In this document: one piece after another, positions 40,387 through 60,361 of the stretch
Numbering within the stretch: the first letter of the stretch is position 1
Layout of the letters: each line of letters starts with the position of its first letter
Position numbers and translations under genes: made by a program
Assembly (NCBI RefSeq): GCF_014109765.1
Contig: NZ_CP059139.1
Location: 5,539,001-5,603,000 of the forward strand
Source: Pseudomonas berkeleyensis
GTDB taxonomy: Bacteria > Pseudomonadota > Gammaproteobacteria > Pseudomonadales > Pseudomonadaceae
DNA length: 64,000 nucleotides
Direction of reading: 5' to 3'
Notes under the pieces: model-generated
The model's input: the letters and a program-made list of their open reading frames with translations, nothing else
Told to the model about the DNA's origin: nothing
The model's database searches: none

Positions 40387-41388
40387 CTAGACGAAGGCGT
40401 CGGCGAAGAAGTTGTCCACCGGTAGGCCGAGCTGCTCGACGTAATCGCGCCGCGCCGAATCGACCACGATGGGCGCGCCGCAGGCATACACCTCGAACTC
40501 GCGCAGCGAGCGGAAATCCTTGAGCACCTGCTGATGGACGAAGCCGGTCGCACCCTGCCAGTCGCATGTCTCGCTGGCATCGGACAACACCGGCGTGTAG
40601 CTGAGCCAGGGCAGTTCGGCGGCCCATTGCAGCAGTTGTTCGTGACGATACAGATCCTCGCGCCGACGACCGCCCCAGTAGAGGTAGACCGGTCGCGTAT
40701 TGCCCTGCTCGCGCAGTTGCTCGAGCAGCGCTTGGATCGGCGCGAAGCCGGTGCCGCTGGCGAGGAAGATCATCGGCGCAGCGGTGTCGCGCAGGAAGAA
40801 GGAGCCGAACGGCCCTTCCATGCGCAGCATCGCCTTGGGTTGCAGACCGTTGAAGACGAAGCCACTGAACACCCCGCCCGGCATATGGCGGATATGCAAC
40901 TCCAGCTGGTTGTCACGCAGCGCGGCCGTGGCCATCGAGTAGCTGCGCCGCGAGCCGTCCTTGAGCAGGAACTGCACGTACTGCCCTGGCAGGTAACGGA
41001 AGGTACTGCCCGGTGGCAAGGCCACGCGCAACACCATCACATCGTGGCTGACCTTCTCCAGCGCCATCACCCGTCCAGCCGTCTGCTGGATGCTGATGCC
41101 ACGCAGCTCGGTGACTTCCGGAGCGTCGATGACCAGATCGGACTTGGCCCGCGCGCAGCAGAACAGTGCCAGCCCCTGCTCACGCTCCGCCGCGCTGAGC
41201 ACGTCCAGCGGGCTGTCGCCATGATCGACTTCCCCGGATACCAGCCGGCCCTTGCAACTGCCGCAGGTGCCCTCGCGGCAACTGTGCTTGAGCATCAGGC
41301 CATCGGCCAGGGCACCATCGAGGATGCTCAGGTTTTCCGCCAGCTCGAAGCGCTGGCCGGAGGGTTGAATCTTCACTGCATAACTCAT
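40387..41388 (-). CDS. NAD(P)H:ferredoxin reductase component with plant-type [2Fe-2S] domain
   Basis: Electron-transfer subunit of about 333 residues. N-terminal plant-type ferredoxin (CREGTCGSCKGRLVSG, with a fourth Cys in LFCCARA), then an FAD-binding FNR domain (RYLPGQYVQFLLKDGSRRSYS) and an NAD-binding domain (PMIFLASGTGFAPIQALLEQ, EVYACGAPIVV). Such reductases pass electrons from NAD(P)H to the Rieske ferredoxin or directly to an oxygenase. Last gene of the leftward operon; the most likely partner is the dioxygenase encoded upstream. Confidence 0.9.
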   Translation of the reverse strand: MSYAVKIQPSGQRFELAENLSILDGALADGLMLKHSCREGTCGSCKGRLVSGEVDHGDSPLDVLSAAEREQGLALFCCARAKSDLVIDAPEVTELRGISIQQTAGRVMALEKVSHDVMVLRVALPPGSTFRYLPGQYVQFLLKDGSRRSYSMATAALRDNQLELHIRHMPGGVFSGFVFNGLQPKAMLRMEGPFGSFFLRDTAAPMIFLASGTGFAPIQALLEQLREQGNTRPVYLYWGGRRREDLYRHEQLLQWAAELPWLSYTPVLSDASETCDWQGATGFVHQQVLKDFRSLREFEVYACGAPIVVDSARRDYVEQLGLPVDNFFADAFV

Positions 41389-41398
41389 GAGCCTGCCC

Positions 41399-41839
41399 TC
41401 AATACCGGTTGGCGCCTTCCAGCACCGCCATGGTCACGCGCGACAGGCAGACCAGACCGCCCTGCTCGTTCTCGATGCGCACTTCCCAGACCTGCACCTT
41501 GCGCCCCAGCGAGGCGGGCTTGGCCGTGCCATACACGACGCTACCGCCCATGGCCGGGCGCACGTGGTTGCCATTGATATCCAGCCCCACGCAGTGATGC
41601 GTGGCACTGTCCAGCACGAAGGCGCCGGCCCAGGAGGCCAGGGTTTCGGCAAAGGCGATGGAGGCGCCGCCATGCAGCACGCCGGCCGGATTGGCGGTGC
41701 GCTCGTCCACCGGCATGCGGCCCTTGAGGTAGTCCGCGCCGGCTTCCAACAGCTCGATGCCGAGGTTGCCGTTGAGGGTGCGGGCGTTACGCCGGTTGCA
41801 GTATTCAAGGGGGAACTCGCCCCCGAACCATATCGACAT
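41399..41839 (-). CDS. PaaI-family hotdog thioesterase
   Basis: A 146-residue acyl-CoA thioesterase of the PaaI/4HBT group: GRMPVDERTANPAGVLHGGA (with the HGG-type active-site loop), ALASW-like AETLASWAGAFVL and GLDINGNHVRPAMGG. Located next to aldolase and acetaldehyde dehydrogenase genes and in the same operon as a CoA ligase. A housekeeping role in freeing CoA from dead-end aryl-CoA is inferred. Confidence 0.88.
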   Translation of the reverse strand: MSIWFGGEFPLEYCNRRNARTLNGNLGIELLEAGADYLKGRMPVDERTANPAGVLHGGASIAFAETLASWAGAFVLDSATHHCVGLDINGNHVRPAMGGSVVYGTAKPASLGRKVQVWEVRIENEQGGLVCLSRVTMAVLEGANRY

Positions 41840-41849
41840 GACCGTCTCC

Positions 41850-42869
41850 TCAGGCTTGCCGGCGGGCGGCGAGCAGATCCAGCGCCACGTCGACGATCAT
41901 GTCCTCCTGGCCGCCGACCATACGCCGCTTGCCCAGCTCGACGAGGATATCCAGGGTCTTCAGCCCGTACTTCTGCGCCGCCACTTCAGCATGACGGAGG
42001 AAGCTGGAATACACACCGGCATACCCCAGGCCGAGGGTTTCCCGGTCGACCCGCACCGGACGATCCTGCAGCGGGCGCACCAGATCGTCGGCGGCGTCCA
42101 TCAGCTTGTAGAGGTCGGTGCCGTGGTTCCAGCCCAGGCGTTCGGCGGCGGCGATGAACACCTCCAGCGGCGCGTTACCGGCACCGGCGCCCATCCCGGC
42201 CAGGCTGGCGTCGACGCGATCACAGCCCTCTTCCACCGCGACGATGGAGTTGGCCACGCCCAGGCTGAGGTTGTGGTGGGCATGCATACCGGTCTGGGTC
42301 TCGGGGTTCAGCGTGGCCTTGAACGCGCGCATGCGCTCGCGGATGTCGTTCATGTTCATGGCGCCGCCGGAGTCGGCCATGTAGATGCACTGCGCGCCGT
42401 AGCTCTCCATCAGCTTGCCCTGCTCGGCGAGTTTTTCCGCCGGGATCATATGGCTCATCATCAGAAAGCCCACGGTGTCCATGCCCAGACTGCGCGCATA
42501 TTCGATGTGCTGTTTCGACACATCCGCCTCGGTGCAGTGGGTGGCCACGCGCACGGTACGCGCACCGGCATCGTAGGCGGCCTTGAGGTCGTGCACGGTG
42601 CCGATGCCCGGCAGCAACAGCACGGCGATGCGCGCGTGCTCGATGACGTCGGCCGCCGCTTCGATCCACTCCAGATCGCTGTGGGCACCGAAGCCATAGT
42701 TGAAACTGGAACCCTGCAGACCGTCACCGTGAGTGACTTCGATGGAGTCGACCCTGGCCTGATCCAGCGCACGGGCGATGTCCTGCACGTTCTGGATCGA
42801 GTACTGGTGGCGGATCGCGTGGCTGCCGTCGCGCAGGGTCACGTCGGAGATAAAGAGTTTCTTGCTCAT
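41850..42869 (-). CDS. 4-hydroxy-2-oxovalerate aldolase
   Basis: Splits 4-hydroxy-2-oxopentanoate into pyruvate and acetaldehyde. The 339-residue sequence has DmpG/BphI/MhpE landmarks: [18 protein letters not shown] (metal-binding RDG), [39 protein letters not shown] and the [13 protein letters not shown] metal site. The start overlaps the acetaldehyde dehydrogenase stop by 4 bp, fitting the known channelled complex. Confidence 0.95.
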
Positions 42870-43807
42870 GCCGAGGCTCCCATCGACTGCGCCATGCGCT
42901 CGGCGGTGGCCAGCGCGGCGGAGGTCATGATGTCGAGGTTGCCGGCGTAGGCCGGCAGGTAATGGGCGGCGCCTTCCACTTCGAGGAAGATCGAGGTCTT
43001 CAGGCCGCTGAAGCGACCGTGGCCGGGAATGTTCAAAGGCGCGGATTCGGGGATCACGTCGAACTGCACCTGCTGCTTGAGGCGATAGCCCGGCACATAG
43101 GCCTGCACGGCGGCGGCCATTTCCTCGACGCTGGCGGCGATCTGCGCCTGGTCGGCGGCTTCGCTGAGCACGAACACGGTGTCGCGCATCATCAGCGGCG
43201 GCTCGGCCGGGTTCATGATGATGATTGCCTTGCCCTTGGCCGCACCGCCGATCACTTCGATGGCCTTGGAGGTGGTCTCGGTGAATTCGTCGATATTGGC
43301 GCGGGTACCGGGGCCGGCGGACTTGCTGGCGATCGAGGCGATGATCTCGGCGTAGTGCACCTTGGCCACGCGCGATACAGCCGCCACCATCGGGATGGTC
43401 GCCTGGCCGCCGCAGGTGACCATGTTGACGTTGAGCTGGCTCAGGTTCTGCTCAAGATTCACCACCGGCACGCAGTACGGGCCGATGGCTGCCGGCGTCA
43501 GGTCGATCAGGCGGATACCCGGCTTGATGCCGCGCAGGAAGGCGTCGTTCTTCACGTGGGCGCCGGCGCTGGTGGCATCGAAGACGAAGTCGATATCGGC
43601 GAACACCGACAGGCGGGTCAGACCCTCGACCCCTTCATGGGTGGTCGCCACGCCCAGGCGCGCTGCACGGGCCAGGCCATCGGAGGCCGGATCGATGCCG
43701 ACCATCGCGCCCATTTCCAGGTGCTTGGCGTTGCGCATCACCTTGATCATCAGGTCGGTGCCGATATTGCCCGAGCCGACGATGGCGACTTTCAGTTTCT
43801 TGCTCAT
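42866..43807 (-). CDS. acylating acetaldehyde dehydrogenase
   Basis: Oxidises acetaldehyde with CoA and NAD+ to acetyl-CoA. The 313-residue protein has the DmpF/BphJ pattern: [20 protein letters not shown] (NAD site), [15 protein letters not shown], catalytic cysteine in [16 protein letters not shown], and [14 protein letters not shown]. Overlaps the CoA-ligase stop upstream and the aldolase start downstream. Confidence 0.95.
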
Positions 43808-45663
43808 GCGGGTTCTCCATAGGCTTCAGCCAACAGAATCACGGCAGGGTCGAGAGAGTCGGCGTACAGCCGCTTGACCTGCTCGGCACGCAGGCTCAGG
43901 GCCGTGCGCTGGTTGATGTAGCCCTTGTCGGTGATCTCGCCGGCTTCCAGGCTCGGTGGCGTATCGAGGATCAGCGCGCGGAAGGCATGCTGCGATGAAG
44001 CCGGACACTCCTTGGCCAATGCCTGCAGGCCGGCGCACAGGGCCAGGCGCACTTCCGGCAGCAACGCCAGTTCATCGGCGCTCATGCTTGCGCCAGCGGC
44101 GCCGGCCAGCTCACGCAGGGCCGGGCCGGGGTAGATCAGCGCGCCGATCATTTCCTGGTCATGGCCGCAGATCACGCAGTCCGTGGCATAGGGCGCCAGG
44201 GCGCTGACCAGCTTGGGCCGCAGGGTGCCGACCGACACCCAGGTACCGCTGCTGAGCTTGAAGTCCTCGGTGACCCGGCCATCGAACTGGATACCCAGCT
44301 CGGGCCGTTCGGGATCGACCAGGCGCCCGGCATCGCCGATGCAGTAGAAGCCTTCGGCATCGAAGGCCTCGGCAGTTTTCTCCGGCGCGCCCAGGTATTC
44401 GCGAAACACCGACGGGCCGCGCACGCGCATCTCGTGCTTGTCGCCGGAAGGCACGAACTTGATCTCCGTGCCCGGCACCGGCAAACCGATGGTGCCGGGG
44501 CGATCGATCAGGTAATGCACGCTGGTCAGCACCGGCGAGGTCTCGGTCGCGCCCCATTCGCTGGCGAAAAACAGCGGCTCGCTGCGTACCGTGCGGCCAC
44601 AGGCGACCAACCGATCCCAGGTGCTGCCCGGAAGCGAAGCCGCCGCATAGAACAGCAGCTCCAGACGGCCGAACAGGGCCTGGGCCAACGCCTCGTCACG
44701 CTCCAGATAGGGCAGCAACGCGTCGTAACCACGCGGCACGTTGAAGTACAGGGTCGGCTTGACCAGCTTGATGTTCTCGATGCTGCGCTCGATCAGCCCC
44801 GGCACCGGACGGCCATCGTCGATATACAGGCTGCCGCCGTTGCGCAGCACCAGATTGAAGTTGTGGTTGGCGCCGAACACGTGGCTCCACGGCAACCAGT
44901 CGAGCACCACCACCGGCACCTGTTCGAGGAACGGCCAGCACTGGGCGATGGCCTGCTGGTTGGCGCAGAGCATGCCGTGGCTGTTGATCACCGCCTTGGG
45001 CGTGCCGGTCGAGCCCGAGGTCATCAGGTAGCGCGCCGGGGTGTCGCCGGTGATTCGGGCGAAGGCCTCCATCACCGCAGGCGTCTCGGTCTTGTACAGC
45101 TGCGCCAGCGACCAGGCGCCGGGGTATTCCTGGGCGTTGCGCGCGGCCACCACCAGGCAGTCGGGTTTGACCAGTTGCAGCGCACGGTAATAGGTATCGC
45201 CGTCGCTGACGAAGATCACGGCCGGGTCGAGTACCTCGATGATCGCCTTGAGCTTGCTGCAGCCGTCCCCCGTGCTGCGTGAATAGGCCACCGAGGTGGT
45301 CGCCACGGGAATGCCGACGTGCATCGCGGCCAGGCTCAGCAGCGCCTGGTCGACGTCGATATCGGACAGGTTGAGCAGCGGACGACCGGCGGGAATGTCC
45401 AGGTCGAGCAGGCCCTGGGCCAGGCTGCCGACACGCTGGCGCACCTCGCGGTAGGTCATGCGGTGCCAGCCGCCATTGTGCCGCTCGGCCAGATAGACCT
45501 GATCCGGGCGCTCGCGCGCCCAGCGCTCCAGCCATTCGCCGATGCAGCGCGCGTAGGGTTGCAGGGGTTGCGGCGAACGCAGGACGAATTCGCCATTGTC
45601 ACGGGGTTCGAAAATCACCTCGGCAGGGGCCAGCCGCGCCGCAAGGTTCGGGAAATCGGTCAT
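43804..45663 (-). CDS. feruloyl-CoA-synthase-like aryl-CoA ligase
   Basis: Adenylate-forming ligase of 619 residues, from the ATG at 45663. It shows the ANL core [20 protein letters not shown], the family's [20 protein letters not shown], then [24 protein letters not shown] and the C-terminal hinge [20 protein letters not shown]. This pattern is that of feruloyl-CoA synthases (Fcs), acting on hydroxycinnamates or related aryl acids. No enoyl-CoA hydratase/vanillin dehydrogenase pair is nearby, so ferulate itself is doubtful. A MITE-like element lies just upstream inside the operon. Confidence 0.87.
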
Positions 45664-45705
45664 ATCCAGGTGCCTCGTGAGTCGGCGCGGGCGCCGCTCA
45701 TACGG

Positions 45706-45713
45706 TTGTTCTT
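45706..45713 (-). promoter_or_regulatory. candidate Crc/Hfq CA motif, CoA ligase gene
   Basis: AAGAACAA on the minus strand within ACAAGAACAACCG, 43 nt before the CoA-ligase ATG. Confidence 0.4.
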
Positions 45714-45720
45714 GTATGAC

Positions 45721-45854
45721 CCCCTTCACGATCTGCTGCGCGTCGGCCCTGCTTCGTTGAAACCAAGCTCGGAATGCTCATTTACAACTCGTAAACTCCG
45801 CTTCCTCGCTTGCTTTCGCCTTGCATGGCTCTAGCTCGCTAGCCCGTGAAGGGG
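45721..45854. mobile_element. MITE-like repeat, copy 2
   Basis: Inverted copy of the element at 6406-6537, with 110 of 126 core positions identical. Its ends are a perfect 10-bp inverted repeat CCCCTTCACG/CGTGAAGGGG, different from copy 1 but again fully complementary. It sits between the hydratase stop (45905) and the CoA-ligase start and may carry a processing or polar effect on the operon. Confidence 0.75.
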
Positions 45855-45904: not shown

Positions 45905-46687
45905 TCAGATAAACCGGCAGCTCACCTCGCCCAGTCGAGTCAAACGCAGGCGCAGGCTGTCGCCGGCCACCACCGGCGTCATCGGCCCCAGCGCGCCGGA
46001 CAGCAGCACATCGCCGGCGCGCAACGGCTGGCCCAGTTCGGCCATGGTGCGCGCCAGCCACAGGCAGGCATTCAGCGGGTTGCCCAGGCAGGCCGCACCG
46101 AGACCGACCGAGGCCTGCACGCCGTTCTTCTCCAGCAGCATGCCTTCGAGGGTCAGATCGAGGCCGTCCAGCTTCACCGGCTGATCGCCGAGCACGTAGA
46201 GGCCCGAGGAGGCGTTGTCGGCGACGGTGTCGACCAGGGTGATCTTCCAGTCCTCGATGGCCGAGTCGACGATCTCCAGCGCCGGCAGCAGGTAGTCGAC
46301 CGCGCTGATCAGCTCGCCCAGGGTGGTGTCGGCATGCGGCAGGTCACGACCAAGGACGAAGGCGATCTCGCCCTCGGCCTTCGGCTGGATCAGCCGTGCG
46401 GTCGGCACATCCTGACCGTGGCGGTATTCCATGTCGGCGAACAGCATGCCGAAGTCCGGCTGGTCGACGCCCAATTGCTGCTGCACGGCCAGCGAGGTGA
46501 GGCCGATCTTGCAGCCGCTGAGGCGGCGCCCGGCATCCAGCGCCGCGCGGGTGTTGATGGCCTGCACGGCATAGGCGTCCTGCAGGCTGACGATGTCGAA
46601 ACGCTCGGACACACGCCCGCAGGGTTGTCGGTTCTGGCGCGCCTGGGCCAGTGCGGCGGCGGCGGATTGCAGATGGGGTTGGCTCAT
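45905..46687 (-). CDS. 2-hydroxypenta-2,4-dienoate hydratase
   Basis: Adds water to the dienoate left after C-C cleavage, giving 4-hydroxy-2-oxovalerate. The 260-residue protein fits the DmpE/BphH/MhpD family: AYAVQAINTRAALDAGRRLSG, CKIGLTSLAVQQQLGVDQPD, PKAEGEIAFVLGRDLP, PALEIVDSAIEDWKITLVDT. ATG at 46687 with AGGAG upstream; 17 bp after the NMO-like gene. Supplies the aldolase encoded downstream. Confidence 0.93.
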   Translation of the reverse strand: MSQPHLQSAAAALAQARQNRQPCGRVSERFDIVSLQDAYAVQAINTRAALDAGRRLSGCKIGLTSLAVQQQLGVDQPDFGMLFADMEYRHGQDVPTARLIQPKAEGEIAFVLGRDLPHADTTLGELISAVDYLLPALEIVDSAIEDWKITLVDTVADNASSGLYVLGDQPVKLDGLDLTLEGMLLEKNGVQASVGLGAACLGNPLNACLWLARTMAELGQPLRAGDVLLSGALGPMTPVVAGDSLRLRLTRLGEVSCRFI

Positions 46688-46704: not shown

Positions 46705-47685
46705 TCAACGACGGTTGTGGCCCAGCGGGCGGTCGAGGCTGGCGCGATAACCATCGACCAGCTCGCTGACGAGTTCGCCGACACTGCACGGGTGGGTGAT
46801 CTGGCCCACGCCCTGGCCAGCAGACCAGACGTGCTTCCAGGCCTTGTTGGCGCTGGCGATGTTGCCGGAGAAATCGACACCGGCCTTGCTCTCGCCAGAG
46901 GGGTCGATGCCGGCCTTCTCGAGCGACGGACGCATCCAGTTGGCCAGCACACCGCTGACCGCCTTGGTCACGACCACGTCGTCCATGCTGCAATCGACCA
47001 GCATCTGTCGGTAGTCGTCCTCGACCAGGCTTTCGCGGGTGACAACCAGACGCGTGCCGACCACCGCGAAGTCGTAACCGAGCACCTGGGCGGCATGCAC
47101 GTCGCGACCATTGGAAATGGCCCCGGCAACACCCAGTGGACCGTCCCAGAAGCGTCGAACTTCATCGACGAAGGCGAACGGGTTATTGGTGCCGGTATGC
47201 CCGCCAGCGCCGTTGCACACCAGGATCAGCGCATCGACACCGGCATCGGCAGCCTTGCGCGCCATGGCCGGGGTGATCACGTCGGCCATCACCACACCGC
47301 CATAGGCGTGCACGTCTTCAAGCACCCGCTTGGGGCTGCCCAGGGCGGTGGAAACGATCGGTGGCTGGAAGCGTTTCACCAGTTCCAGCTCGGCGGCGAA
47401 GCGGTCATAGGTGCTGTGCACGATCATGTTCAGCATCCACGGCGCCAGCGTTGTACCAGCCGCCTGGGCCTGCTCACGCTCGGCGCTGATCTGCTCCAGC
47501 CACTGCTCGAGGATTTCCACCGTACGGGCGTTGGGCGCCGGCATGCTGCCGATGATGCCGGCGTGGCAGCAGGCGCTCAGCAGTTGCGGGCCGGAGACCA
47601 GGAACATCGGCGCCGCCAGCACAGGTACGGGCAACGCAGCGAACAGCTCCAGCACCTTGTGCTGGGAAGGAGTATGCGCACTCAT
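46705..47685 (-). CDS. nitronate monooxygenase-family FMN protein
   Basis: A 326-residue TIM-barrel flavoprotein of the NMO/2-nitropropane dioxygenase family: PVLAAPMFLVSGPQLLSACC, VMADVITPAMARKAADAGVD, LILVCNGAGGHTGTNNPFAF, VAGAISNGRDVHAAQVLGYD. The family includes true nitronate monooxygenases but also FabK-type enoyl reductases and acyl-CoA-active members of steroid pathways. Beside a CoA ligase, an acyl-CoA redox role is at least as likely as nitronate chemistry. ATG at 47685; AACAACAA lies 21 nt upstream. Confidence 0.85.
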   Translation of the reverse strand: MSAHTPSQHKVLELFAALPVPVLAAPMFLVSGPQLLSACCHAGIIGSMPAPNARTVEILEQWLEQISAEREQAQAAGTTLAPWMLNMIVHSTYDRFAAELELVKRFQPPIVSTALGSPKRVLEDVHAYGGVVMADVITPAMARKAADAGVDALILVCNGAGGHTGTNNPFAFVDEVRRFWDGPLGVAGAISNGRDVHAAQVLGYDFAVVGTRLVVTRESLVEDDYRQMLVDCSMDDVVVTKAVSGVLANWMRPSLEKAGIDPSGESKAGVDFSGNIASANKAWKHVWSAGQGVGQITHPCSVGELVSELVDGYRASLDRPLGHNRR

Positions 47686-47813: not shown

Positions 47814-48611
47814 CTAGCGGCCACCTGCGCTGCGGATTTCCCAGCCACCATCACTGTGAATGATGTGCGCGGTGGTCAACGACGAATCCTTGCGCGAAGC
47901 CAGCAGCACGTAATGGCCGGTGTGATCCTCCGGCTCGGCGATGCGCTGCAGCGGCACCGCACGCGCGGCGGCCTCCTCGAAACCGGGAATGGCATTGAGT
48001 GGCTGACTGCGCTTGTTCAGCCCTTCGAGGCTCTTCATCGGCGTATTGGTGGCGCCCGGCGCGACGCCGTTGACGCGAATATCCGGCGCCAGCTCGTAGG
48101 CCAACTGGCGGATCATGCCGACCAGTGCGTGCTTGGCGGTGACGTAGAGAATGCCGCCGCCACCGGCGTAGAAGGCGCTGTTGGACAGGGTGAAGATCAT
48201 GCTGCCGCGCGTCTCACGCAAAGCGTCGGTGGCGCAGCGCGCGCCGAGCAGATAGCCCTGCACGTTGATCGCGAACAGGCGCTGGAAGGCCTGCTCCAGC
48301 TCCTCCGGGGCGATGCGGTCGAGACGGGTGAAATAGTCGAATACCGCCGCGTTGCCGACGAAGGTATCCAGCTTGCCGAAAGCCTCCAGCGTCTGCGCCA
48401 CGGCGCGCTGGTTATCGGCCAGGCTGGAGACGTCCCCCTGGATCACCACGACGGCATCGCCCAGCTCAGTCTGCAGCGCATCGAGCTGCTCACGGTTGCG
48501 CGCCATCACCCCGACGCGCGCCCCTTCCTGCACGTAGCGGCGCACGATGGCGCTGCCGATGCCACCGGTACCGCCGGTGATCAGGGCCACCTGCCCTTCT
48601 AGCCAACCCAT
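47814..48611 (-). CDS. cis-dihydrodiol dehydrogenase (SDR family)
   Basis: Re-aromatises the cis-dihydrodiol made by the dioxygenase, giving a catechol and NADH. The 265-residue SDR has GXXXGXG motif TGGTGGIGSAIVRRY, VGNAAVFDY (NAG-like), Ser in TLSNSAFYAGGGG and YVTAKHALVGM (YxxxK). Length and the GNAAVFDY block resemble BphB/HcaB-type dehydrogenases. ATG at 48611, overlapping the stop region of the beta-subunit gene by a gap of only 11 bp. Confidence 0.9.
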   Translation of the reverse strand: MGWLEGQVALITGGTGGIGSAIVRRYVQEGARVGVMARNREQLDALQTELGDAVVVIQGDVSSLADNQRAVAQTLEAFGKLDTFVGNAAVFDYFTRLDRIAPEELEQAFQRLFAINVQGYLLGARCATDALRETRGSMIFTLSNSAFYAGGGGILYVTAKHALVGMIRQLAYELAPDIRVNGVAPGATNTPMKSLEGLNKRSQPLNAIPGFEEAAARAVPLQRIAEPEDHTGHYVLLASRKDSSLTTAHIIHSDGGWEIRSAGGR

Positions 48612-52054: not shown

Positions 52055-52870
52055 TCACTCCGAGAGGAAGTCGCGCACCAGCGCAACGAAACGACGCGGC
52101 TGCTCGGCCTGCACCCAGTGGCCGCAACGACCGAACAGATGCAGGTCGGCGTCCGGCACGCTGTTGGCGATCAGCAGCCCGCATTGCGGCGGCACCACAC
52201 GGTCTTCGCGACCATGCACCACCAGGGTTGGCGCGGTGATCTTGGCCAACGCGGCAGCCGGGAACCCCTTGACGATGGTTTCGCCATCCGGGTTCGGCTG
52301 TGGGATCAGCTTGCGCAGCGCCGCCTGCGCGCCCGGCCGGGCCGAGGCCTCGTAGCGGCTCTGCACCAGCTCGGGGGTAATCAGCGCCTGGTCGTAGGGG
52401 AACAGAGCCATCAGCTCGCGCATGTTGTCCAGCGACGGTTCGTATTCCCAGGCGCCGCGCAGGCCGGCGGTCTGCACGAACTCACCGGCCGGAGTGCCGA
52501 GCAGCACCAGGCGCTTGACCCGCTCAGGGGCGAACACCGCCAGGCCGATGGCCAAAGCGCCACCGAAGGAATTGCCGACGAAGGAGGCCTTGTCGATGTC
52601 GAGCGCATCCATGATGTCGACGAGATGGGCGACCCACAGCTTGATGTCGTATTTGACGTCGTCCTTGAGTTCAGTGAAGCCGAAACCGGCGATGTCCGGA
52701 ACGATCACCCGCCACTTGTCGGAGAAGGCCGGCATGCTCCGCGCCCAGTTGCTCCACCCGGAAACCCCGGGACCCGAGCCGTGCAGCAGAAACAGCGCCT
52801 CACCCTGCCCAGCCTCGTGATAGTTGGTCTTGTGCCCAGCCGCAACCAGACTCCTGCCGATACCGTCCAT
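52055..52870 (-). CDS. alpha/beta hydrolase for meta-cleavage product (C-C bond hydrolase)
   Basis: Cleaves the ring-fission product into 2-hydroxypenta-2,4-dienoate and an acid. The 271-residue protein has the oxyanion block LLHGSGPGVSGWSNW, nucleophile Ser in VGNSFGGALAIG, Asp in VVHGREDRVVP and His in FGRCGHWVQAEQP, the MCP-hydrolase pattern (BphD, DmpD, CarC). First gene of the leftward operon; GGAGG precedes the ATG and a putative operator lies 31 nt upstream. Confidence 0.93.
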   Translation of the reverse strand: MDGIGRSLVAAGHKTNYHEAGQGEALFLLHGSGPGVSGWSNWARSMPAFSDKWRVIVPDIAGFGFTELKDDVKYDIKLWVAHLVDIMDALDIDKASFVGNSFGGALAIGLAVFAPERVKRLVLLGTPAGEFVQTAGLRGAWEYEPSLDNMRELMALFPYDQALITPELVQSRYEASARPGAQAALRKLIPQPNPDGETIVKGFPAAALAKITAPTLVVHGREDRVVPPQCGLLIANSVPDADLHLFGRCGHWVQAEQPRRFVALVRDFLSE

Positions 52871-52900: not shown

Positions 52901-52920
52901 ATACAGATGTGTATGTGCAT
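52901..52920. promoter_or_regulatory. putative TetR operator O1 (catabolic operon)
   Basis: ATACAGATGTGTATGTGCAT, an imperfect dyad that matches the reverse complement of the perfect dyad at 54054-54073 at 17 of 20 positions. It overlaps the expected promoter zone of the leftward operon. Confidence 0.62.
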
Positions 52921-53320: not shown

Positions 53321-53896
53321 ATGTCTGTACGCCCTAATCTGACCCGGGAAGATTGGATCCATGCCGCCCAGCAGGTACTGGTCAAGGGCGGCGTCGATGC
53401 CGTCCGGGTCGACACGCTGGCCAAGGAACTGAACATCACCCGCGGCAGCTTCTACTACCACTTCAAGAGCCGTAACGAGCTGCTCGAAGGCATCCTCGGT
53501 GGCTGGCGCACGCGCGCCACGGAAGACGTCATTCTCCACCTCAGCGACGCCCAGACCACACCACAGCAGCAACTCCAGCGCCTGATGGAACTGCCCCTGC
53601 ACGGCCAGACCGCCAAGGAAGCTGCCGCCATCGAGCTGGCCATTCGCGCCTGGGCACGCCGTGACGAGCACGCCCGTCAGGCCATCGACGAGGTCGACCG
53701 CTATCGCCTCAGCTACATCAAGGGCTTGCTGCTGCAGGCCGGCGTCGAGGCACAGGACGCCAGCGACCGCGCCTACCTGATCTACGCCTACCAGATCAGC
53801 CTGTCGTTGCTGAACAACAACGAACCCGCAGGCGAGCGCCTGTCCCGCAATACCCGCCTGGCCGAGCTGCTGGTACCCACCGCACAGCGCGCCTGA
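53321..53896 (+). CDS. TetR-family regulator of the catabolic and uptake operons
   Basis: A 191-residue regulator. Residues 8-55 form the TetR helix-turn-helix (DWIHAAQQVLVKGGVDAVRV, LAKELNITRGSFYYHFKSRN). The rest is a ligand and dimerisation domain with no close named match. It lies between the leftward catabolic operon and the rightward transport operon, each preceded by a similar 20-bp dyad, so it is probably the substrate-responsive repressor of both. The ligand is likely a pathway intermediate (inference). Confidence 0.9.
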   Translation: MSVRPNLTREDWIHAAQQVLVKGGVDAVRVDTLAKELNITRGSFYYHFKSRNELLEGILGGWRTRATEDVILHLSDAQTTPQQQLQRLMELPLHGQTAKEAAAIELAIRAWARRDEHARQAIDEVDRYRLSYIKGLLLQAGVEAQDASDRAYLIYAYQISLSLLNNNEPAGERLSRNTRLAELLVPTAQRA

Positions 53897-54053: not shown

Positions 54054-54073
54054 ATACACATTCACATGTGTAT
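54054..54073. promoter_or_regulatory. putative TetR operator O2 (uptake operon)
   Basis: ATACACATTCACATGTGTAT: perfect 8-bp arms ATACACAT/ATGTGTAT with a 4-base spacer, upstream of the ABC importer genes. Closely related to the site at 52901. Confidence 0.65.
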
Positions 54074-54292: not shown

Positions 54293-55330
54293 ATGGATGC
54301 GACCATTGCCGCCTTTCTTCTCCAGGATGGTCTGACCACCGGTGCGATCTACGCACTGATCGCCCTGGCCCTGGTGCTGGTATTCGCCGTGACCCGGGTG
54401 ATCTTCGTCGGCCAGGGCGACTTCGTCGTGTTCGGCGCACTGACCCTGGCCTCGCTGCAGGCCGGCATGCTGCCACCGACCTTCTGGTTGTTGCTCGGCT
54501 GCGCCGTCGCCGGTTGCGTGCTGGACTGCGCCATCGCCATCCGTCATCAGCACCTGTGGCGCCTGCCACGCATCCTGCTCAATTACCTGCTGCCCAGCAC
54601 CCTGGTCTGGGCCGCGCTGAGCGCCTTCGACCTGAGGAACCTGCCAGGCCTGGCGCAAGTCGCGCTGACCCTGCTGGTGGTCACCCCACTCGGCCCGCTG
54701 CTCTATCGCCTGGTCTACCAGCGCCTGGCGGAAACCTCGGTGCTGATGTTGCTGATCGTCTCGGTGGCGCTGCACATCGTGCTGCTGGGCTTGAGCCTGC
54801 TGATGTTCGGCGCCGAGGGCTTCCGCACCGAAGCATTGAGCGATGTCGCGCTGACCGTCGGCGAAATGCAGGTCAGCCTGCAGAGCCTGATGGTGATCGG
54901 TTGCGCCCTGAGCCTGATCATCATGCTCTATCTCCTGTTCGGCCACACGCTGTACGGCAAGGCGCTACGTGCCACCGCGTTCAACCGCAACGGTGCGCAA
55001 CTGGTGGGCATTCCCACGCGTCTGGCCGGGCAGGCCGCATTCGCCCTGGCGGCACTGGTCGGCACCTGCTCGGGCATCCTCATCGGCCCGCTAACCACGC
55101 TGTATTACGACTCGGGCTTTCTGATCAGCCTCAAGGGCTTCGTCGCCGCCATCATCGGCGGCCTGGCCAGCTACCCGATGGCCGCTGCCGGCGCCTTCCT
55201 GGTCGGCACGCTGGAAAGTTTCTCGATGTTCTGGGCCTCGGCCTACAAGGAAGTGATCGTCTTCACCCTGGTGATTCCGGTGCTGCTGATCCTCTCCCTG
55301 AAACACTCGCACAGTGGGGAGGAACACTGA
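54293..55330 (+). CDS. LivH-type ABC transporter permease
   Basis: A 345-residue inner-membrane permease of the branched-chain/hydrophobic acid (HAAT) family: GLTTGAIYALIALALVLVFA, TRVIFVGQGDFVVFGAL, TAFNRNGAQLVGIPTRL and GLASYPMAAAGAFLVGTLES. First gene of the rightward operon; the ATG at 54293 has GGAGAGAAG upstream and the stop overlaps the next start (TGATG). HAAT importers carry aromatic acids as well as amino acids, which fits the flanking catabolic genes. Confidence 0.92.
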   Translation: MDATIAAFLLQDGLTTGAIYALIALALVLVFAVTRVIFVGQGDFVVFGALTLASLQAGMLPPTFWLLLGCAVAGCVLDCAIAIRHQHLWRLPRILLNYLLPSTLVWAALSAFDLRNLPGLAQVALTLLVVTPLGPLLYRLVYQRLAETSVLMLLIVSVALHIVLLGLSLLMFGAEGFRTEALSDVALTVGEMQVSLQSLMVIGCALSLIIMLYLLFGHTLYGKALRATAFNRNGAQLVGIPTRLAGQAAFALAALVGTCSGILIGPLTTLYYDSGFLISLKGFVAAIIGGLASYPMAAAGAFLVGTLESFSMFWASAYKEVIVFTLVIPVLLILSLKHSHSGEEH

Positions 55331-57105
55331 TGAACCGCCGTTTGCTTGCGTTGCTTCTGTTGCTGGTCGGCATCGTCCTGGCGCCCCAGGTGCTGCAACC
55401 CTTCCATGTCACCCTGCTCAACTATGTCGGGCTGTACAGCCTGGTGGCGCTGGGCCTGGTGGTGCTCACCGGCGTCGGTGGGCTGACCTCGTTCGGCCAG
55501 GCCGCATTCGTCGGCATTGGCGCCTACGCCACTGCCGTAGTCAGCGCCAATCTCGGTCTGTCGCCCTGGCTGGGCCTGCTCGCCGGCCTCGGTATCACCC
55601 TGGTGGTGGCACTGCTGCTCGGCCTGCTGACCCTGCGTCTGGCCGGCCATTACCTGCCGTTGGGCACTCTGGCCTGGGGCCTGGCGCTGTACTACCTGTT
55701 CGGCAATCTGCCGATGCTCGGCGGCTTCGCCGGGATCGCCGACCTGCCCTACATCCAGCTCGGTGGCTGGACGATTGACAGCGCCAGCGACTTCACCCTG
55801 ATCATCGGCGTGTTGCTGGTGGCTGTGCTGTGGATGCTCGGCAACCTCCTCGACAGCCGCCAGGGCCGCGCCATCCGCTCGCTCAAGGAAGCCAGTGGCA
55901 TGGCCGAGGCGATGGGCGTGAACACCATGCGCAGCAAGCTGCTGGCCTTCGTCCTCGCTGCTCTGCTGGCGGCGCTGTCGGGCTGGATCTACGCGCACAT
56001 GCAGCGCATCGTCAATCCGACACCGTTCTCGGTGACCATGGGCATCGAATACCTGTTCATGATCGTCCTCGGCGGCGCCGCCAGCCTGTGGGGCGCACTG
56101 GTCGGCGCCGCGCTGCTGACGCTGTTCAAGCAGGTGCTGGAAGATGTGCTGCCGCAGTTGCTGGGCGGCGGTGGCGGCACCCTGGAGCTGATCGTTTTCG
56201 GCGCGCTGATCATCCTCGTTCTGCAATACGCCAAGGACGGCCTGCTGCCGCTGCTGCAGAAATACCTACCCAGCCCGAAGCCACGCGTGCTCGATCTGCA
56301 CGATGCCGAACCGTTGCCCCGGCGTGAGCCGGAACCCTTGCGCAGCAACCAGCCGCTGCTGGCCGCCGACCGCCTGGTCAAGCGCTTCGGTGGGCTGGTG
56401 GCCAACAACGACATGAGCCTGGCGGTACACGCTGGTCAGGTCGTCGCGCTGATCGGCCCCAACGGTGCCGGCAAGTCGACCCTGTTCAACCTGCTTACCG
56501 GCGTACTGCCACCAACATCCGGCCAGGTGTTCTTCAAGGGTCAGCGCATCGACGGCCTGTCGCCGCGTGCTATCGCCAAACTTGGCGTCAGCCGCACCTT
56601 CCAGCATGTGCGCCTGCTGCCCGGCATGAGCGTGCTGGAAAATGTCGCCCTCGGCGCCCATCGCCGTGGCAACGCCGGTGTGCTGCGCGCGCTGCTGCGC
56701 TTCGACCGTGCAGAGGAGCGCCGCCTGCTCGCCGAAGCCGCCCGACAGATCGAGCGCGTCGGCCTCGCCGAGTACATGCACACCCCAGCCGGCAGCCTGG
56801 CCCTGGGTCAACAGCGCATCGTCGAGATCGCCCGCGCGCTGTGCAGCGACCCGCAGATGCTGCTGCTCGACGAGCCAGCCGCCGGCCTGCGTTACAACGA
56901 GAAGCAGACCCTCGCCTGCCTGCTCGAACAACTGCGCGAGGAAGGTCTTGGCGTGCTGCTGGTCGAGCACGACATGGACTTCGTCATGGGCCTGGCCGAC
57001 CACATCGTGGTGATGGAATTCGGCCAGCGCCTGGCGACCGGCAGCCCCATGGAAATCCAGGACAACCCGGCGGTACTGGCCGCCTACCTCGGAGGTGTGG
57101 AATGA
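55330..57105 (+). CDS. LivM-LivG fusion: ABC permease/ATP-binding protein
   Basis: A 591-residue two-domain protein. Residues 1-315 are a LivM-type permease (LVVLTGVGGLTSFGQAAFVG, SLKEASGMAEAMGVNTMRSK, LGGAASLWGALVGAALL). Residues ~345-591 are a LivG-type ATPase: Walker A IGPNGAGKSTLFNLL, signature region SLALGQQRIVEIARAL, Walker B LLLDEPAAGL. A Pro/Arg-rich linker joins them. The signature has ALGQQR in place of LSGGQ, as in several HAAT ATPases. Overlaps both neighbours. Confidence 0.93.
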   Translation: MNRRLLALLLLLVGIVLAPQVLQPFHVTLLNYVGLYSLVALGLVVLTGVGGLTSFGQAAFVGIGAYATAVVSANLGLSPWLGLLAGLGITLVVALLLGLLTLRLAGHYLPLGTLAWGLALYYLFGNLPMLGGFAGIADLPYIQLGGWTIDSASDFTLIIGVLLVAVLWMLGNLLDSRQGRAIRSLKEASGMAEAMGVNTMRSKLLAFVLAALLAALSGWIYAHMQRIVNPTPFSVTMGIEYLFMIVLGGAASLWGALVGAALLTLFKQVLEDVLPQLLGGGGGTLELIVFGALIILVLQYAKDGLLPLLQKYLPSPKPRVLDLHDAEPLPRREPEPLRSNQPLLAADRLVKRFGGLVANNDMSLAVHAGQVVALIGPNGAGKSTLFNLLTGVLPPTSGQVFFKGQRIDGLSPRAIAKLGVSRTFQHVRLLPGMSVLENVALGAHRRGNAGVLRALLRFDRAEERRLLAEAARQIERVGLAEYMHTPAGSLALGQQRIVEIARALCSDPQMLLLDEPAAGLRYNEKQTLACLLEQLREEGLGVLLVEHDMDFVMGLADHIVVMEFGQRLATGSPMEIQDNPAVLAAYLGGVE

Positions 57106-57869
57106 GCAGCCTGCTGCAGGTCAAAGGCCTGTCGATCAGCTACGGCAAGGTGGCAGCGGTACGCAACCTCGACCTTGAGGTGGCGCAAGGCAGCATCGTC
57201 AGCCTGATCGGCCCCAACGGCGCCGGCAAGACCACGTTGATGTCGGCGCTGATCGGTTTGCTGCCGTCCGCCGGGGACATCCTCTTCGACGGCCAGCCAC
57301 TGCTGCCCCACCACGATGTGGCGCACCGCGTCGGCCAGGGCATGCTGCTGGTGCCGGAAAGTCGCGAGCTGTTCAGCGAGATGAGCGTCGAGGACAACCT
57401 CCAGCTCGGCGCCTTCAGCCGACGCCGCCAGGGCCATCGAGATCATGCGCAGACCCTGGAGGAGGTCTACGGCCTGTTCCCGCGCCTGCGCGAGCGCCGC
57501 CAGCAGGCCTCCGGCACGCTGTCCGGCGGTGAGCGGCAGATGCTCGCCATCGGCCGCGCGCTGATGGGCAAGCCACGCCTGCTGCTGCTCGACGAACCGA
57601 GCCTGGGCCTGGCGCCACGGGTCATCGGCGAAATCTTCGAGATCATCCAGAACCTGCGTGCCAGCGGTGTTTCCATCCTGCTGGTGGAACAGAACGCCCG
57701 CGCCGCACTGAAGATTTCCGACTACGGCTACGTACTGGAGGTCGGCGAAAAGGTACTGCAAGGCCCGGCCGCCGAGCTGGCCGAAGACCAGCGTGTGATC
57801 GAGACCTACCTCGGTCGCAAGTCTGCCAAGGCCGCACCTGCGGCCAGTCAGGCCGTGGCGGCGCACTAA
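57102..57869 (+). CDS. LivF-type ABC transporter ATP-binding protein
   Basis: A 255-residue ATPase: Walker A IGPNGAGKTTLMSAL, signature LSGGERQMLAIGRALMG, Walker B LLLLDEPSLGLAPRV. Second nucleotide-binding subunit of the importer. Starts inside the fusion-gene stop (ATGA), so the longer upstream frame is rejected. A 20-residue Ala/Lys-rich tail follows the core. Confidence 0.93.
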   Translation: MSSLLQVKGLSISYGKVAAVRNLDLEVAQGSIVSLIGPNGAGKTTLMSALIGLLPSAGDILFDGQPLLPHHDVAHRVGQGMLLVPESRELFSEMSVEDNLQLGAFSRRRQGHRDHAQTLEEVYGLFPRLRERRQQASGTLSGGERQMLAIGRALMGKPRLLLLDEPSLGLAPRVIGEIFEIIQNLRASGVSILLVEQNARAALKISDYGYVLEVGEKVLQGPAAELAEDQRVIETYLGRKSAKAAPAASQAVAAH

Positions 57870-57926: not shown

Positions 57927-59063
57927 ATGAAGAAACTGATCCCTCTGCTGCTCAGCGCGGCGGTGAGCACTGCCGTGCACGCCGACATCAACATCGGCCT
58001 GGTGCTATCCACCACCGGCCCCGGCGCCTCGCTCGGCATTCCCGAGCAGAACACCGTGGCCCTGCTGCCTCAGGAAATCGCCGGCCAGCGCATCAACTAC
58101 ACCGTGCTCGACGATGCTACCGACAGCACCGCCGCCACCCGCGCGGCGCGCAAGCTGGTCAGCGAGAACAAGGTCGACCTGCTGATCGGCTCGTCCACCG
58201 TGCCGACCTCCGCCGCCGTGGCTCAGGTCGCCCGCGAGACCAACACACCGCAGATCGCCCTGGCCCCCTTCGCCCCCAGTGGCGACGCCAGGCACTGGAT
58301 CTTCACCGTGGCGCAAACCAACCTGCTGATGGCCGACGCCCTGGTCAAACACATGCAGGAGAACGGCGTGAAGACCGTCGGCTACATCGGCTACAACGAC
58401 GTCTGGGGCGAGGACTGGCACAAGGCCCTGGAAGAGCTGCTACCGAAAGCCGGCATCAAGCTGGTGCGCAATGAACGCTTCAACCGCACCGACTCCAGCG
58501 TCAGCGGCCAGGCCCTGAAGATCAAGGCGGCCAACCCGGACGCCGTGCTGATCGGCGCCACCGGCACACCGGCCGCTCTGCCACACACCGAACTGCGTCG
58601 CCTTGGTTACAAGGGCCCGATCTATCACACCCATGGCGCCGCCAACAGCGCCTTCCTGCGCATCGGTGGCAAGGATCTGGAGGGCTCGATTCTCGCCGTC
58701 GGCCCGGTGGTGGTCTGGGATCAACTGCCGGACAGCCACCCATCCAAAGCCCCCGGCAAGCACTACGCCGAAGCCTACGAGGCCAAGTACGGCGCCGGCA
58801 GCCTGTCGCCGTTCGGTGCCTACCTGTACGACGCCATGCAACTGGTCGAAGCCGCCATCCCGAGTGCGCTGCAAGGCAGCGAAGCCGGCACCGTCGAATT
58901 CCGCCAGAAGCTGCGTGACGCCCTCGAGCAATCGAGCGGTGTCGCCGGCAGCCATGGCGTGTACAGCCTCTCGGCTGACGACCACTTCGGCCACGACCAG
59001 CGTGCCCGCGCGCTGATCACCATCAAGGACGGTCAGTGGCAGCTGCTCGAGGCCCCGCAATAA
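57927..59063 (+). CDS. HAAT-type periplasmic substrate-binding protein
   Basis: A 378-residue binding protein with signal peptide MKKLIPLLLSAAVSTAVHA. The mature start DINIGLVLSTTGPGASLGIP, then RAARKLVSENKVDLLIGSST and NGVKTVGYIGYNDVWGEDW, are those of LivK-like aromatic and amino-acid binding proteins. It provides specificity to the importer encoded just upstream and is the best single protein for ligand-binding tests of the pathway substrate. Confidence 0.93.
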   Translation: MKKLIPLLLSAAVSTAVHADINIGLVLSTTGPGASLGIPEQNTVALLPQEIAGQRINYTVLDDATDSTAATRAARKLVSENKVDLLIGSSTVPTSAAVAQVARETNTPQIALAPFAPSGDARHWIFTVAQTNLLMADALVKHMQENGVKTVGYIGYNDVWGEDWHKALEELLPKAGIKLVRNERFNRTDSSVSGQALKIKAANPDAVLIGATGTPAALPHTELRRLGYKGPIYHTHGAANSAFLRIGGKDLEGSILAVGPVVVWDQLPDSHPSKAPGKHYAEAYEAKYGAGSLSPFGAYLYDAMQLVEAAIPSALQGSEAGTVEFRQKLRDALEQSSGVAGSHGVYSLSADDHFGHDQRARALITIKDGQWQLLEAPQ

Positions 59064-59100
59064 CCCTCACCACGCCTTGCCATCGCGTTACCCGAACCAC

Positions 59101-59112
59101 AACAAAAACAAA
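59101..59112 (+). promoter_or_regulatory. candidate Crc/Hfq CA motif, porin gene
   Basis: AACAAAAACAAA, 11-22 nt before the porin ATG, overlapping its AAGG ribosome-binding site. Confidence 0.5.
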
Positions 59113-59122
59113 GGTACGTTCA

Positions 59123-60361
59123 ATGAAACCGCTATACGCACTGCTTCCTCTGCTGGTTGCCACACAGGTCGCCCAGGCCGACTTCATCAAGGACAGCAAA
59201 GGTTCGCTGCAGATTCGCAACTACTACTTCGACCATGATTTCCAGGGCGGTCCAGGCCTGGACGAAATGCGTGAATGGGCCCAGGGCTTCATTCTCAAGG
59301 CCGACTCGGGCTACACCGAAGGGCCGGTGCAGTTCGGCCTGAGCTTCATCGGCATGACCGGCTTTCAGCTCGATTCCAGCCCGGATCGCACCGGCACCGG
59401 CCTGCTGTCGTTCAACCCGCGCACCCGTGAGGTCAACGACAACTATTCCAAGGCCGGTATCTCGGCACGCTTCAAGGTCTCCAACACCGAACTGCAAGTC
59501 GGCCACATGACGCCGCTACTGCCGATCATGTTCCCGGTGACCGCGCGCCTGTTCCCGCCACTGTTCCGCGGTGGCATGGTGACCTCCGGCGAGATCGATG
59601 GGCTGACCTTGCGCGGCGGTTACTTCGACCGGCAGAAATACCGCGACTCCACCGAAGACGCCAAGCTGCGCGTCAGCGGCCTCAACGGTCGCTTCAACGG
59701 CACTGCGGAGTCCAGCGGCTTCATGTTTGGCGGTGGCGACTACAAGCTGCTCGATAACCTCACCGGCTCGTACTACTACGCGCAACTGAACGACATCTAC
59801 AAGCAGCACTACGTCGGCCTGACCCACACCACACCGCTCGGCCCGGGCGCGCTGAAGAGCGAGGCCTATTACTTCGACAGCAGTGAGGACGGTGCGGCCA
59901 AGGCCGGCCGCGTCGACAACGGCAACCTCAACCTGAACGCTGCCTACACCCTGGGCGCCAACACCTTCAGCCTGGGCTACATGCACCTGAGCGGCGATAC
60001 CGGCATGCCGTACCTGGCCAGCATCGACCCCTACGTGATGGTCGGCGGCGCCCTGGCCACCGAGTACCTGAACCCCAAGGAGCGCGTGTGGCAGTTCAAG
60101 CACGACTATGACTTCGCCAGGCACGGCTTGCCGGGCCTGAAGACGCAGATCCGCTTCATTCAGGGCCGCAACATCCACGAGCCGGTGGCCGACGGCAACG
60201 GCGAAGAGTGGGAACGCGATCTGGAGGTGTCCTACGTGGTGCAGAGCGGCAGCCTGGCCGGTCTCGGCCTGCGTCTGCGCCACGGCCACTACCAGAACAA
60301 CTTCAGCCGTGATGTCGAGCAGACCCGCGTCAACATCGACTACACCCTGGCACTCTGGTAA
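59123..60361 (+). CDS. OprD-family outer-membrane porin
   Basis: A 412-residue porin with signal peptide MKPLYALLPLLVATQVAQA and the OprD start FIKDSKGSLQIRNYYFDHDF. A beta-barrel follows, ending in a strand with terminal aromatic residues (RVNIDYTLALW). OprD-family members (OpdK, BenF, PhaK types) admit aromatic or other carboxylates. Last gene of the transport operon; ATG at 59123. Together with the ABC importer it implies an anionic substrate. Confidence 0.92.
   Translation: MKPLYALLPLLVATQVAQADFIKDSKGSLQIRNYYFDHDFQGGPGLDEMREWAQGFILKADSGYTEGPVQFGLSFIGMTGFQLDSSPDRTGTGLLSFNPRTREVNDNYSKAGISARFKVSNTELQVGHMTPLLPIMFPVTARLFPPLFRGGMVTSGEIDGLTLRGGYFDRQKYRDSTEDAKLRVSGLNGRFNGTAESSGFMFGGGDYKLLDNLTGSYYYAQLNDIYKQHYVGLTHTTPLGPGALKSEAYYFDSSEDGAAKAGRVDNGNLNLNAAYTLGANTFSLGYMHLSGDTGMPYLASIDPYVMVGGALATEYLNPKERVWQFKHDYDFARHGLPGLKTQIRFIQGRNIHEPVADGNGEEWERDLEVSYVVQSGSLAGLGLRLRHGHYQNNFSRDVEQTRVNIDYTLALW

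Follow-up and report, generated by a model that had tools for sequence, protein, structure and literature searches.

A co-inherited Rieske dioxygenase-LigAB gene cluster in Pseudomonas berkeleyensis and its putative role in the uptake and catabolism of cinnamate-type acids

Which compound is degraded by a gene cluster that combines, in one operon, a Rieske dioxygenase, a two-subunit LigAB-type extradiol dioxygenase, a C-C hydrolase and a CoA ligase? The question is raised by a 64,000-nucleotide stretch of Pseudomonas berkeleyensis DNA (contig NZ_CP059139.1; the window), whose positions 40387-60361 hold such an operon and, facing it, the genes of an importer (Table 1). The original prediction, made from the sequence alone, described a composite island whose mix of enzymes suggested an undescribed substrate. 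We propose that the cluster is a module that takes up and mineralizes an aryl-alkenoic or aryl-alkanoic acid lacking a para-hydroxyl group, most likely trans-cinnamate and/or 3-phenylpropionate. We give this substrate class an even chance of being right, and hold the order of the reactions more firmly.

The catabolic operon lies on the minus strand and runs from 52870 down to 40387. The hydrolase gene comes first, followed by the genes for LigA, LigB, the Rieske ferredoxin, the alpha and beta subunits of the oxygenase, a short-chain dehydrogenase/reductase (SDR), a flavoprotein of the FabK/nitronate monooxygenase (NMO) type, a hydratase, the CoA ligase, acetaldehyde dehydrogenase, aldolase, a thioesterase and, last, the reductase. 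The plus strand carries, between 54293 and 60361, genes for ATP-binding cassette (ABC) permeases and ATPases, a periplasmic binding protein and the porin OprD. The same strand also holds a TetR gene (53321-53896). All enzymes originally assigned to the leftward operon are present, each in an open frame, as are the importer and the porin opposite. The CoA ligase, the flavoprotein, the thioesterase, a chemoreceptor, the TetR gene and the operators had not been recognized. The same gene order was looked for in other genomes and recurs there, so the arrangement is not due to chance.

Patterns derived from four LigB sequences located 76 loci in named genomes. With two plasmid loci, one record being counted once, this gave 77 loci for comparison; a fragment from P. 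putida S12 (L004) was left out. LigB is present in all 77 by selection. The hydrolase and LigA are likewise present in all, followed by beta (75), alpha (74), the SDR (74), the flavoprotein (70), the ferredoxin (68) and the hydratase (64), with some misses reflecting loci ended early by contig ends. Among the 57 long loci, defined as those whose DNA extends 10.5 kb or more beyond the LigB start, the ligase occurs in 46, the aldolase and the acetaldehyde dehydrogenase in 48 each, and a reductase of this type in 34. The hosts include Pseudomonas, Azotobacter, Alcaligenaceae, Burkholderia-type genera, Zoogloea, Marinobacterium, Ignatzschineria and alphaproteobacteria. Within its own genus the cluster is rare, being found in 9 of 298 genomes searched, the host included.

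Pairwise identity correlations among the hydrolase, LigB, alpha, the SDR, the flavoprotein and the ligase are 0.79-0.91, whereas those of the same genes with the aldolase are only 0.53-0.71. Shared descent of the hosts raises all of these figures, and it is the contrast that counts. It argues that the ligase belongs to the module. Judged from these identities, the core, of which the ligase is a part, is passed on as a unit, and the lower route can be exchanged. The cluster looks like one old module with a core co-inherited in alpha-, beta- and gammaproteobacteria, for which "composite island" is too strong a term. Base composition is uninformative on island status, the G+C content of the cluster (65%) being equal to that of the rest of the window.

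In P. linyingensis (L013) LigB occurs twice, at about 5.8 kb and at 10.0 kb, and a second, partial copy (LigA, LigB, alpha, beta) stands directly before the full cluster. A genome titled Pantoea sp. Ap-967 (L023) has LigB at the same contig position as a Pseudomonas genome and is probably a misnamed Pseudomonas. The L004 fragment, on plasmid pTTS12 of P. putida S12, consists of LigA, LigB and alpha at 15700-17700, downstream of styrene genes, and ends shortly before mercury-resistance and Tn3 genes. "Phenylpropionic acid degradation" genes on pTTS12, said to adjoin an efflux pump, are probably other genes (PMC9537497).

Does the cluster belong to a known pathway? The E. coli hca/mhp system shares with it an alpha-beta Rieske oxygenase, a ferredoxin, an HcaB-type SDR, a LigB-fold class III enzyme, a C-C hydrolase and the MhpD/F/E lower route, and the beta subunit and SDR of the window pass Hca-type subfamily cut-offs (PRK10069, PRK06200). 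The differences are considerable, however. The alpha subunit is 40% identical to HcaE and reaches 395 bits where the HcaE equivalog requires 830; beta and the SDR also fall short of the HcaF (114 bits against 230) and HcaB (325 against 450) equivalogs. Two-subunit LigAB takes the place of single-chain MhpB, to which LigB is 23% identical, and the reductase is BenC-like rather than HcaD-like. The hydrolase is nearer to CumD, the 2-hydroxy-6-oxo-7-methylocta-2,4-dienoate hydrolase that provides its closest solved structures. The CoA ligase, the flavoprotein, the ABC importer and TetR are extra, and there is one operon where E. coli has two. Plain membership in hca/mhp was rejected on the HcaE cut-off, the separate LigA and LigB, and the low identity of LigB to MhpB. 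The carbazole (car) pathway was rejected as well, since a beta subunit is present, LigB is 30% identical to CarBb and the hydrolase 33% to CarC.

The supposed oddity of an alpha-beta oxygenase paired with a class III extradiol enzyme, from which an undescribed substrate had been argued, does not hold up. E. coli pairs HcaEF with class III MhpB and with MhpC, though in two operons, and on plasmid pDF02 of Rhodococcus p52 the genes for alpha, beta, hydrolase, LigB and LigA stand side by side. The pDF02 cluster is presumably of the dibenzofuran type, and its proteins are 29-35% identical to those of the window. Because none of the characterised pathways compared matches the cluster throughout, as far as identities and gene content indicate, the alpha subunit and the extradiol enzyme do not trace to a single described pathway of known substrate.

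The aromatic cluster on pRHL2 of Rhodococcus RHA1 has a close named alpha subunit (53%) and a close hydrolase (47%), which we take to be ethylbenzene enzymes; it differs in its BphC-type extradiol enzyme and, within the 25 kb seen, has no ABC or tripartite ATP-independent periplasmic (TRAP) importer and no CoA ligase. These relatives, together with the best PDB match of the hydrolase, a cumene-pathway enzyme, and the fragment near styrene genes in P. putida S12, would fit a pathway for alkylbenzene- or styrene-type hydrocarbons, in which the ligase would activate the small acid released by the hydrolase. Yet hydrocarbons need no binding-protein importer, and an ABC or TRAP importer was found with 39 of the 77 loci; in the window and six relatives the importer stands under the same operator as the catabolic genes, and no FadL-type gene is among those of the operon. 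We therefore consider a hydrocarbon substrate improbable. The name EtbAa1 is given in PMC6080516.

The binding protein of the importer shares 47% identity with CouP from Rhodopseudomonas palustris, and the neighboring genes supply the rest of a CouPSTU-type set (PMC3223731), namely a permease, a fused permease-ATPase and an ATPase. The ligands of CouP are coumarate, ferulate and caffeate, and also cinnamate, which is bound more weakly, with Kd values in the nM range; the TRAP protein TarP binds the same phenylpropenoids (PMC3610893). R. palustris likewise has ABC and TRAP importers (CouPSTU, TarPQM) beside a CoA ligase. There, however, the regulator is of the MarR type, the ligase is a p-coumarate-CoA ligase and coumarate is degraded through a hydratase-lyase (PMC3610893, PMC3223731), whereas the window has TetR, ring dioxygenation and a CouP homolog that has lost the 4-hydroxyl contacts.

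These contacts were compared in 28 cluster copies of the binding protein, with chain 3sg0 as a control; the published CouP contacts match the chain numbering exactly at an offset of 26. The carboxylate contact Arg197 is kept in 28 of 28 copies, and the position of Ser222 is Ser or Thr in all. At the other end of the ligand, His309 is replaced by Tyr in every copy, and Gln305 by Pro, Asn or Leu. Going by these residues, the acid clamp is largely conserved and the para-hydroxyl end is not, and so the protein would suit a ring without a para-hydroxyl. Substrates of Hca-type 2,3-dioxygenases have such rings.

A CouP-like protein occurs in 27 further clusters and a TRAP binding protein in 12, and the view that the importer points to an aromatic carboxylate is strengthened accordingly. 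ABC importer and OprD occur together in several Pseudomonas (six loci, plus L103 beside L013); the binding-protein gene lies inside the operon, usually adjoining the ligase, in 18 of the 57 long loci, mostly of betaproteobacteria; and a TRAP importer is present in nine alphaproteobacterial loci, among which one record appears twice, and also follows the cluster, downstream, in three Marinobacterium/Nitrincola cases. The remaining loci have no importer within the DNA covered, which included 20 downstream stretches. MFS transporter genes lie near the cluster instead in, for example, L010, L022 and L043.

Importer and catabolic operon share an operator. A perfect palindrome, ATACACAT-TCAC-ATGTGTAT (general form ATACACAT-N4-ATGTGTAT), precedes the importer operon, and a copy with two mismatches precedes the hydrolase gene. 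The number of sites in the 5.65-Mb genome proves nothing, because at up to three mismatches there are 3 of them and 2 for the reversed control pattern, and because the perfect copy itself supplied the search pattern; the case made from the sequences is one of site position and of relatives. Within the stretch scanned upstream of the hydrolase gene, a site with no more than two mismatches is present in 36 of 77 loci. By comparison, 200 shuffled palindromes matched 0.05 loci on average and at most 2 in the same stretch, and the best matches of the reversed pattern still had 4 mismatches or more. (In this count L005 and L072, one record, are entered twice, and one of 78 was lost for lack of usable upstream DNA.) A perfect copy precedes the importer in six Pseudomonas loci (L014, L015, L018, L021, L030 and L082, P. 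huaxiensis), although the hydrolase-side copy is often degenerate. The 41 loci with more than two mismatches comprise the alphaproteobacterial and most Marinobacterium/Nitrincola-type loci (3 to 8 mismatches), as well as Pseudomonas and other gammaproteobacterial loci, often with a degenerate hydrolase-side copy (3 to 5); in L035, L042 and L046 the site lies outside the scanned stretch. The second operator copy of the window touches the -10-like hexamer of a promoter-like match, a weak indication, as one such match was found and 0.4 expected. A TetR relative adjoins the cluster in many loci, and the TetR protein would be the natural candidate repressor for both operators, a weaker proposition than the shared operator itself.

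Why should such an operon encode a CoA ligase? The ligase scores 666.7 bits with PRK12582, by annotation a feruloyl-CoA synthetase subfamily, for which the curated cut-off is 777; the next best family scores 85.7 bits. By these scores it is related to the subfamily yet under its line. Its counterpart in B. cenocepacia is annotated feruloyl-CoA synthase. Ferulate catabolism was nevertheless rejected as its purpose. The ligase hardly serves ferulate because it is the only one near PRK12582 in the host genome, where the next best place scores 101 bits, and because no feruloyl-CoA hydratase-lyase in that genome scores above the cut-off (best 149 bits, against 276). Eleven long loci lack this ligase. 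Eight of them, all alphaproteobacterial, have another AMP-binding ligase upstream; L070 has a distant AMP-binding ligase, and L040 and L078 showed none. Since importers swap between ABC and TRAP types and eight of the eleven ligase-less loci carry another ligase, it seems to us that the module requires an acid importer as well as a ligase.

A biaryl- or stilbene-like pathway would give the conserved ligase a natural substrate: the oxygenase would attack an unsubstituted phenyl ring, the hydrolase would free an aryl-propenoic acid, and the ligase would activate that acid for side-chain breakdown. A beta-oxidation operon beside the cluster in three loci is in keeping with this, as are the two nearest LigB relatives outside the cluster, which lie in apparently naphthol-type regions and hence would act on bulky catechols. 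The lack of a feruloyl-CoA hydratase-lyase above cut-off in the host argues the other way, and the hydrolase resembles CumD, whose known side chains are small. CouP, moreover, takes single-ring phenylpropenoids (PMC3610893). Such a pathway seems unlikely to us. The three loci in question belong to Burkholderia (L003), Pseudomonas sp. TH10 (L025) and Paraburkholderia (L031); their neighboring operon encodes a DUF5938 protein, an enoyl-CoA hydratase, an acyl-CoA dehydrogenase and a ligase of its own, with a thiolase in L003 and L031. Farther downstream, sucC and sucD are found in L003 and also in L107, which is the continuation of L031. The LigAB relatives in L006 and L007 (LigB identity 43-46%) adjoin genes for 2-hydroxychromene-2-carboxylate isomerase; the one in L007 is also near a gene for carbaryl hydrolase, on a plasmid that carries resistance genes.

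A FabK chain ranks first for the flavoprotein both by sequence and by model comparison, only narrowly ahead of nitroalkane oxidases, and the structure model (mean pLDDT 91) does not separate enoyl reductase from nitronate monooxygenase. The thioesterase is present in none of the 57 other long loci; a copy with 61% identity lies downstream of the L065 cluster (stretch L119).

A Gln at the position of LB400 residue 336 is invariant in the alpha subunits (77 of 77 rows, the alignment counting the window and doubled records), and it is the sole family mark at the listed pocket positions that would relate to a polar side chain. In the hydrolases, CumD position 203 is occupied by Lys or Arg in all 79 rows, counted in the same way, and going by the alignment this residue may hold a side-chain carboxylate; the MhpC Lys aligned there adjoins a gap and was not used. 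The possible carboxylate holder, the clamp of the binding protein and the conserved ligase would also fit an aryl acid with another side chain, such as 2-phenylpropionate or 3-phenylbutyrate, the ligase then activating the dicarboxylic acid left by the hydrolase. However, nothing observed points directly to a chain that is branched or longer, and the B. cenocepacia counterpart of the ligase is annotated as feruloyl-CoA synthase, an aryl-acid ligase; the probability of this variant is in our estimate low.

How would cinnamate or phenylpropionate be degraded? OprD and the CouP-type importer would bring the acid in, with the module probably under the control of TetR. The enzyme families suggest the following order of reactions. 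The alpha-beta dioxygenase, served by the ferredoxin and the BenC-like reductase, would convert the ring to a cis-dihydrodiol, the HcaB-like SDR would oxidize this to a catechol, and LigAB would open the catechol ring. The hydrolase would then release 2-hydroxypenta-2,4-dienoate and the side-chain acid (fumarate from cinnamate, succinate from phenylpropionate), and the hydratase, aldolase and acetaldehyde dehydrogenase would convert the dienoate to pyruvate and acetyl-CoA. More tentatively, the CoA ligase and the FabK-like flavoprotein most likely handle the C3 side chain through formation of cinnamoyl-CoA, reduction and release. In this strain, with its thioesterase, a detour from cinnamate via cinnamoyl-CoA and phenylpropionyl-CoA to phenylpropionate is conceivable. 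Alternatively, the aryl-CoA made by the ligase may be the inducer that lifts TetR repression, as p-coumaroyl-CoA is the inducer for CouR (PMC3610893).

A gene group of this kind has probably been described before. In P. veronii Pvy, the "dmp/ard1" group resembles the cluster in its published description: it comprises an oxygenase, a diol dehydrogenase, a ring-opening enzyme and a meta pathway, and its authors placed the oxygenase next to ethylbenzene and alkylbenzene dioxygenases of Rhodococcus (PMC8022969). Since another P. veronii, DSM 11331 (L021), carries the present cluster with its importer, ard1 is probably this cluster. The excerpts of that paper name no substrate, importer or operator for ard1, and no substrate assignment for the cluster was found in the excerpts of the literature searched. 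The idea of an undescribed pathway stands in that none of the characterised pathways compared matches throughout, though the genes are probably already in print (PMC8022969). In keeping with the proposed substrate, strain Pvy grows on trans-cinnamic acid, while ferulic acid, caffeic acid and biphenyl do not support its growth (PMC8022969).

Several points weigh against cinnamate and phenylpropionate. The alpha subunit and the hydrolase are closer to the presumed alkylbenzene enzymes than to HcaE and MhpC, and no invariant Arg or Lys is found among the listed pocket positions of alpha. A third carboxylate contact of CouP, Thr102, is lost in 25 of the 28 binding proteins and remains in 3. The control 3sg0, whose ligand we take to be benzoylformate, without a 4-hydroxyl, keeps His309 and Thr102 though not Gln305; loss of His309 is therefore not a required mark of a ring without a 4-hydroxyl. 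The conservation of the ligase is not explained by the substrate alone, because a free-acid route of the hca/mhp type needs no CoA ligase. As for strain Pvy, its growth on trans-cinnamic acid was recorded at 15 mM but at neither 5 nor 10 mM; it also has mhp and fcs/ech-like genes, a possible cause of that growth, and its authors tied cinnamate to a region other than ard1 (PMC8022969).

Table 1. Genes and operator sites of the cluster, with window coordinates and the matches on which each assignment is based
Feature	Position	Strand	Basis
Methyl-accepting chemotaxis protein (MCP), sCache_2 ligand domain	38626..40260	-	Pfam
NADH reductase with Fer2, FAD and NAD domains	40387..41388	-	Pfam; BenC model best but below cut-off
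Hotdog (4HBT) thioesterase	41399..41839	-	TIGR00369 above cut-off
4-Hydroxy-2-oxovalerate aldolase	41850..42869	-	TIGR03217 above cut-off; 85% to MhpE
Acetaldehyde dehydrogenase (acylating)	42866..43807	-	TIGR03215 above cut-off; 81% to MhpF
Acyl-CoA ligase (641 aa, AMP-binding) near PRK12582 subfamily	43804..45729	-	666.7 bits, cut-off 777
2-Hydroxypenta-2,4-dienoate hydratase	45905..46687	-	49% to MhpD; family models below cut-off
Flavoprotein, FabK/nitronate monooxygenase superfamily	46705..47685	-	PF03060; FabK chain ranked first, narrowly
cis-Dihydrodiol dehydrogenase, HcaB-like SDR	47814..48611	-	PRK06200 above cut-off, 378 bits against 330
Rieske dioxygenase beta subunit	48623..49153	-	PF00866; PRK10069 subfamily above cut-off, 200 bits against 145
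Rieske dioxygenase alpha subunit	49164..50516	-	PF00848 and PF00355; 54% to pNL1 alpha, 53% to RHA1 pRHL2 alpha, 40% to HcaE
Rieske ferredoxin	50543..50896	-	PF00355; HcaC models below cut-off
LigB-type catalytic subunit of extradiol dioxygenase	50893..51747	-	PF02900, E 2.3e-33; 46% to N. pentaromativorans US6-1 LigB, 43% to Pseudomonas XWY-1 LigB
LigA-type small subunit of extradiol dioxygenase	51752..52048	-	PF07746, E 4.8e-7 (weak); 36% over 69 residues to XWY-1 LigA
Meta-cleavage-product C-C hydrolase	52055..52870	-	Pfam and PDB matches, nearest solved structures CumD; 47% to RHA1 pRHL2 hydrolase, 33% to MhpC
Operator copy 2 (two mismatches), upstream of hydrolase gene	52901..52920	.	
TetR-family regulator, divergent from catabolic operon	53321..53896	+	PF00440
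Operator copy 1 (perfect palindrome), upstream of importer operon	54054..54073	.	
ABC importer permease	54293..55330	+	PF02653
Fused ABC permease-ATPase	55330..57105	+	PF02653 and PF00005 in one frame; start codon at 55330
ABC ATPase	57102..57869	+	PF00005
CouP-type periplasmic binding protein	57927..59063	+	PF13458; 47% to CouP 4jb0
OprD-family outer-membrane porin	59126..60361	+	PF03573, E 2.1e-124

The chemoreceptor gene lies directly 3' of the reductase gene, and an MCP gene also adjoins the cluster in L003, L004 and L015. On the left, the cluster is flanked by a class III aminotransferase gene (36148-37512) for which a search of 13 other genomes, 9 from the same genus, gave no match at E 1e-100; an SDR on the right has a match in 2 of 13 at E 1e-60. 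Farther left, 18365-33643 holds vitamin B12-type genes, which encode a Peripla_BP_2 protein, a TonB receptor, a nitrite/sulfite-reductase-like protein and a CbiG-tetrapyrrole methylase fusion.

The cluster has thus probably been in print once before, without a substrate, and is a set of genes common to many bacteria. The analysis offers a concrete substrate hypothesis, a candidate regulator and operator, and an importer for an oxygenase group to which a published genome study gave no function and whose hosts are soil, marine and animal-associated proteobacteria. Through the operator and the residues of the binding protein, the hypothesis can be tested directly. A broader view, which we put forward tentatively and at somewhat worse than even odds, is that of a widespread route for non-hydroxylated phenylpropenoids, with side-chain CoA chemistry inside an oxygenase/LigAB pathway, a TetR protein that may sense the aryl-CoA made by the operon's ligase, and a single co-inherited core around which lineages have exchanged importers and ligases. 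If the substrate hypothesis is true, it would explain why generic annotation calls these genes protocatechuate dioxygenase, nitronate monooxygenase or feruloyl-CoA synthase, for example, and there would be another aerobic route for cinnamate-type plant acids besides hca/mhp of E. coli.

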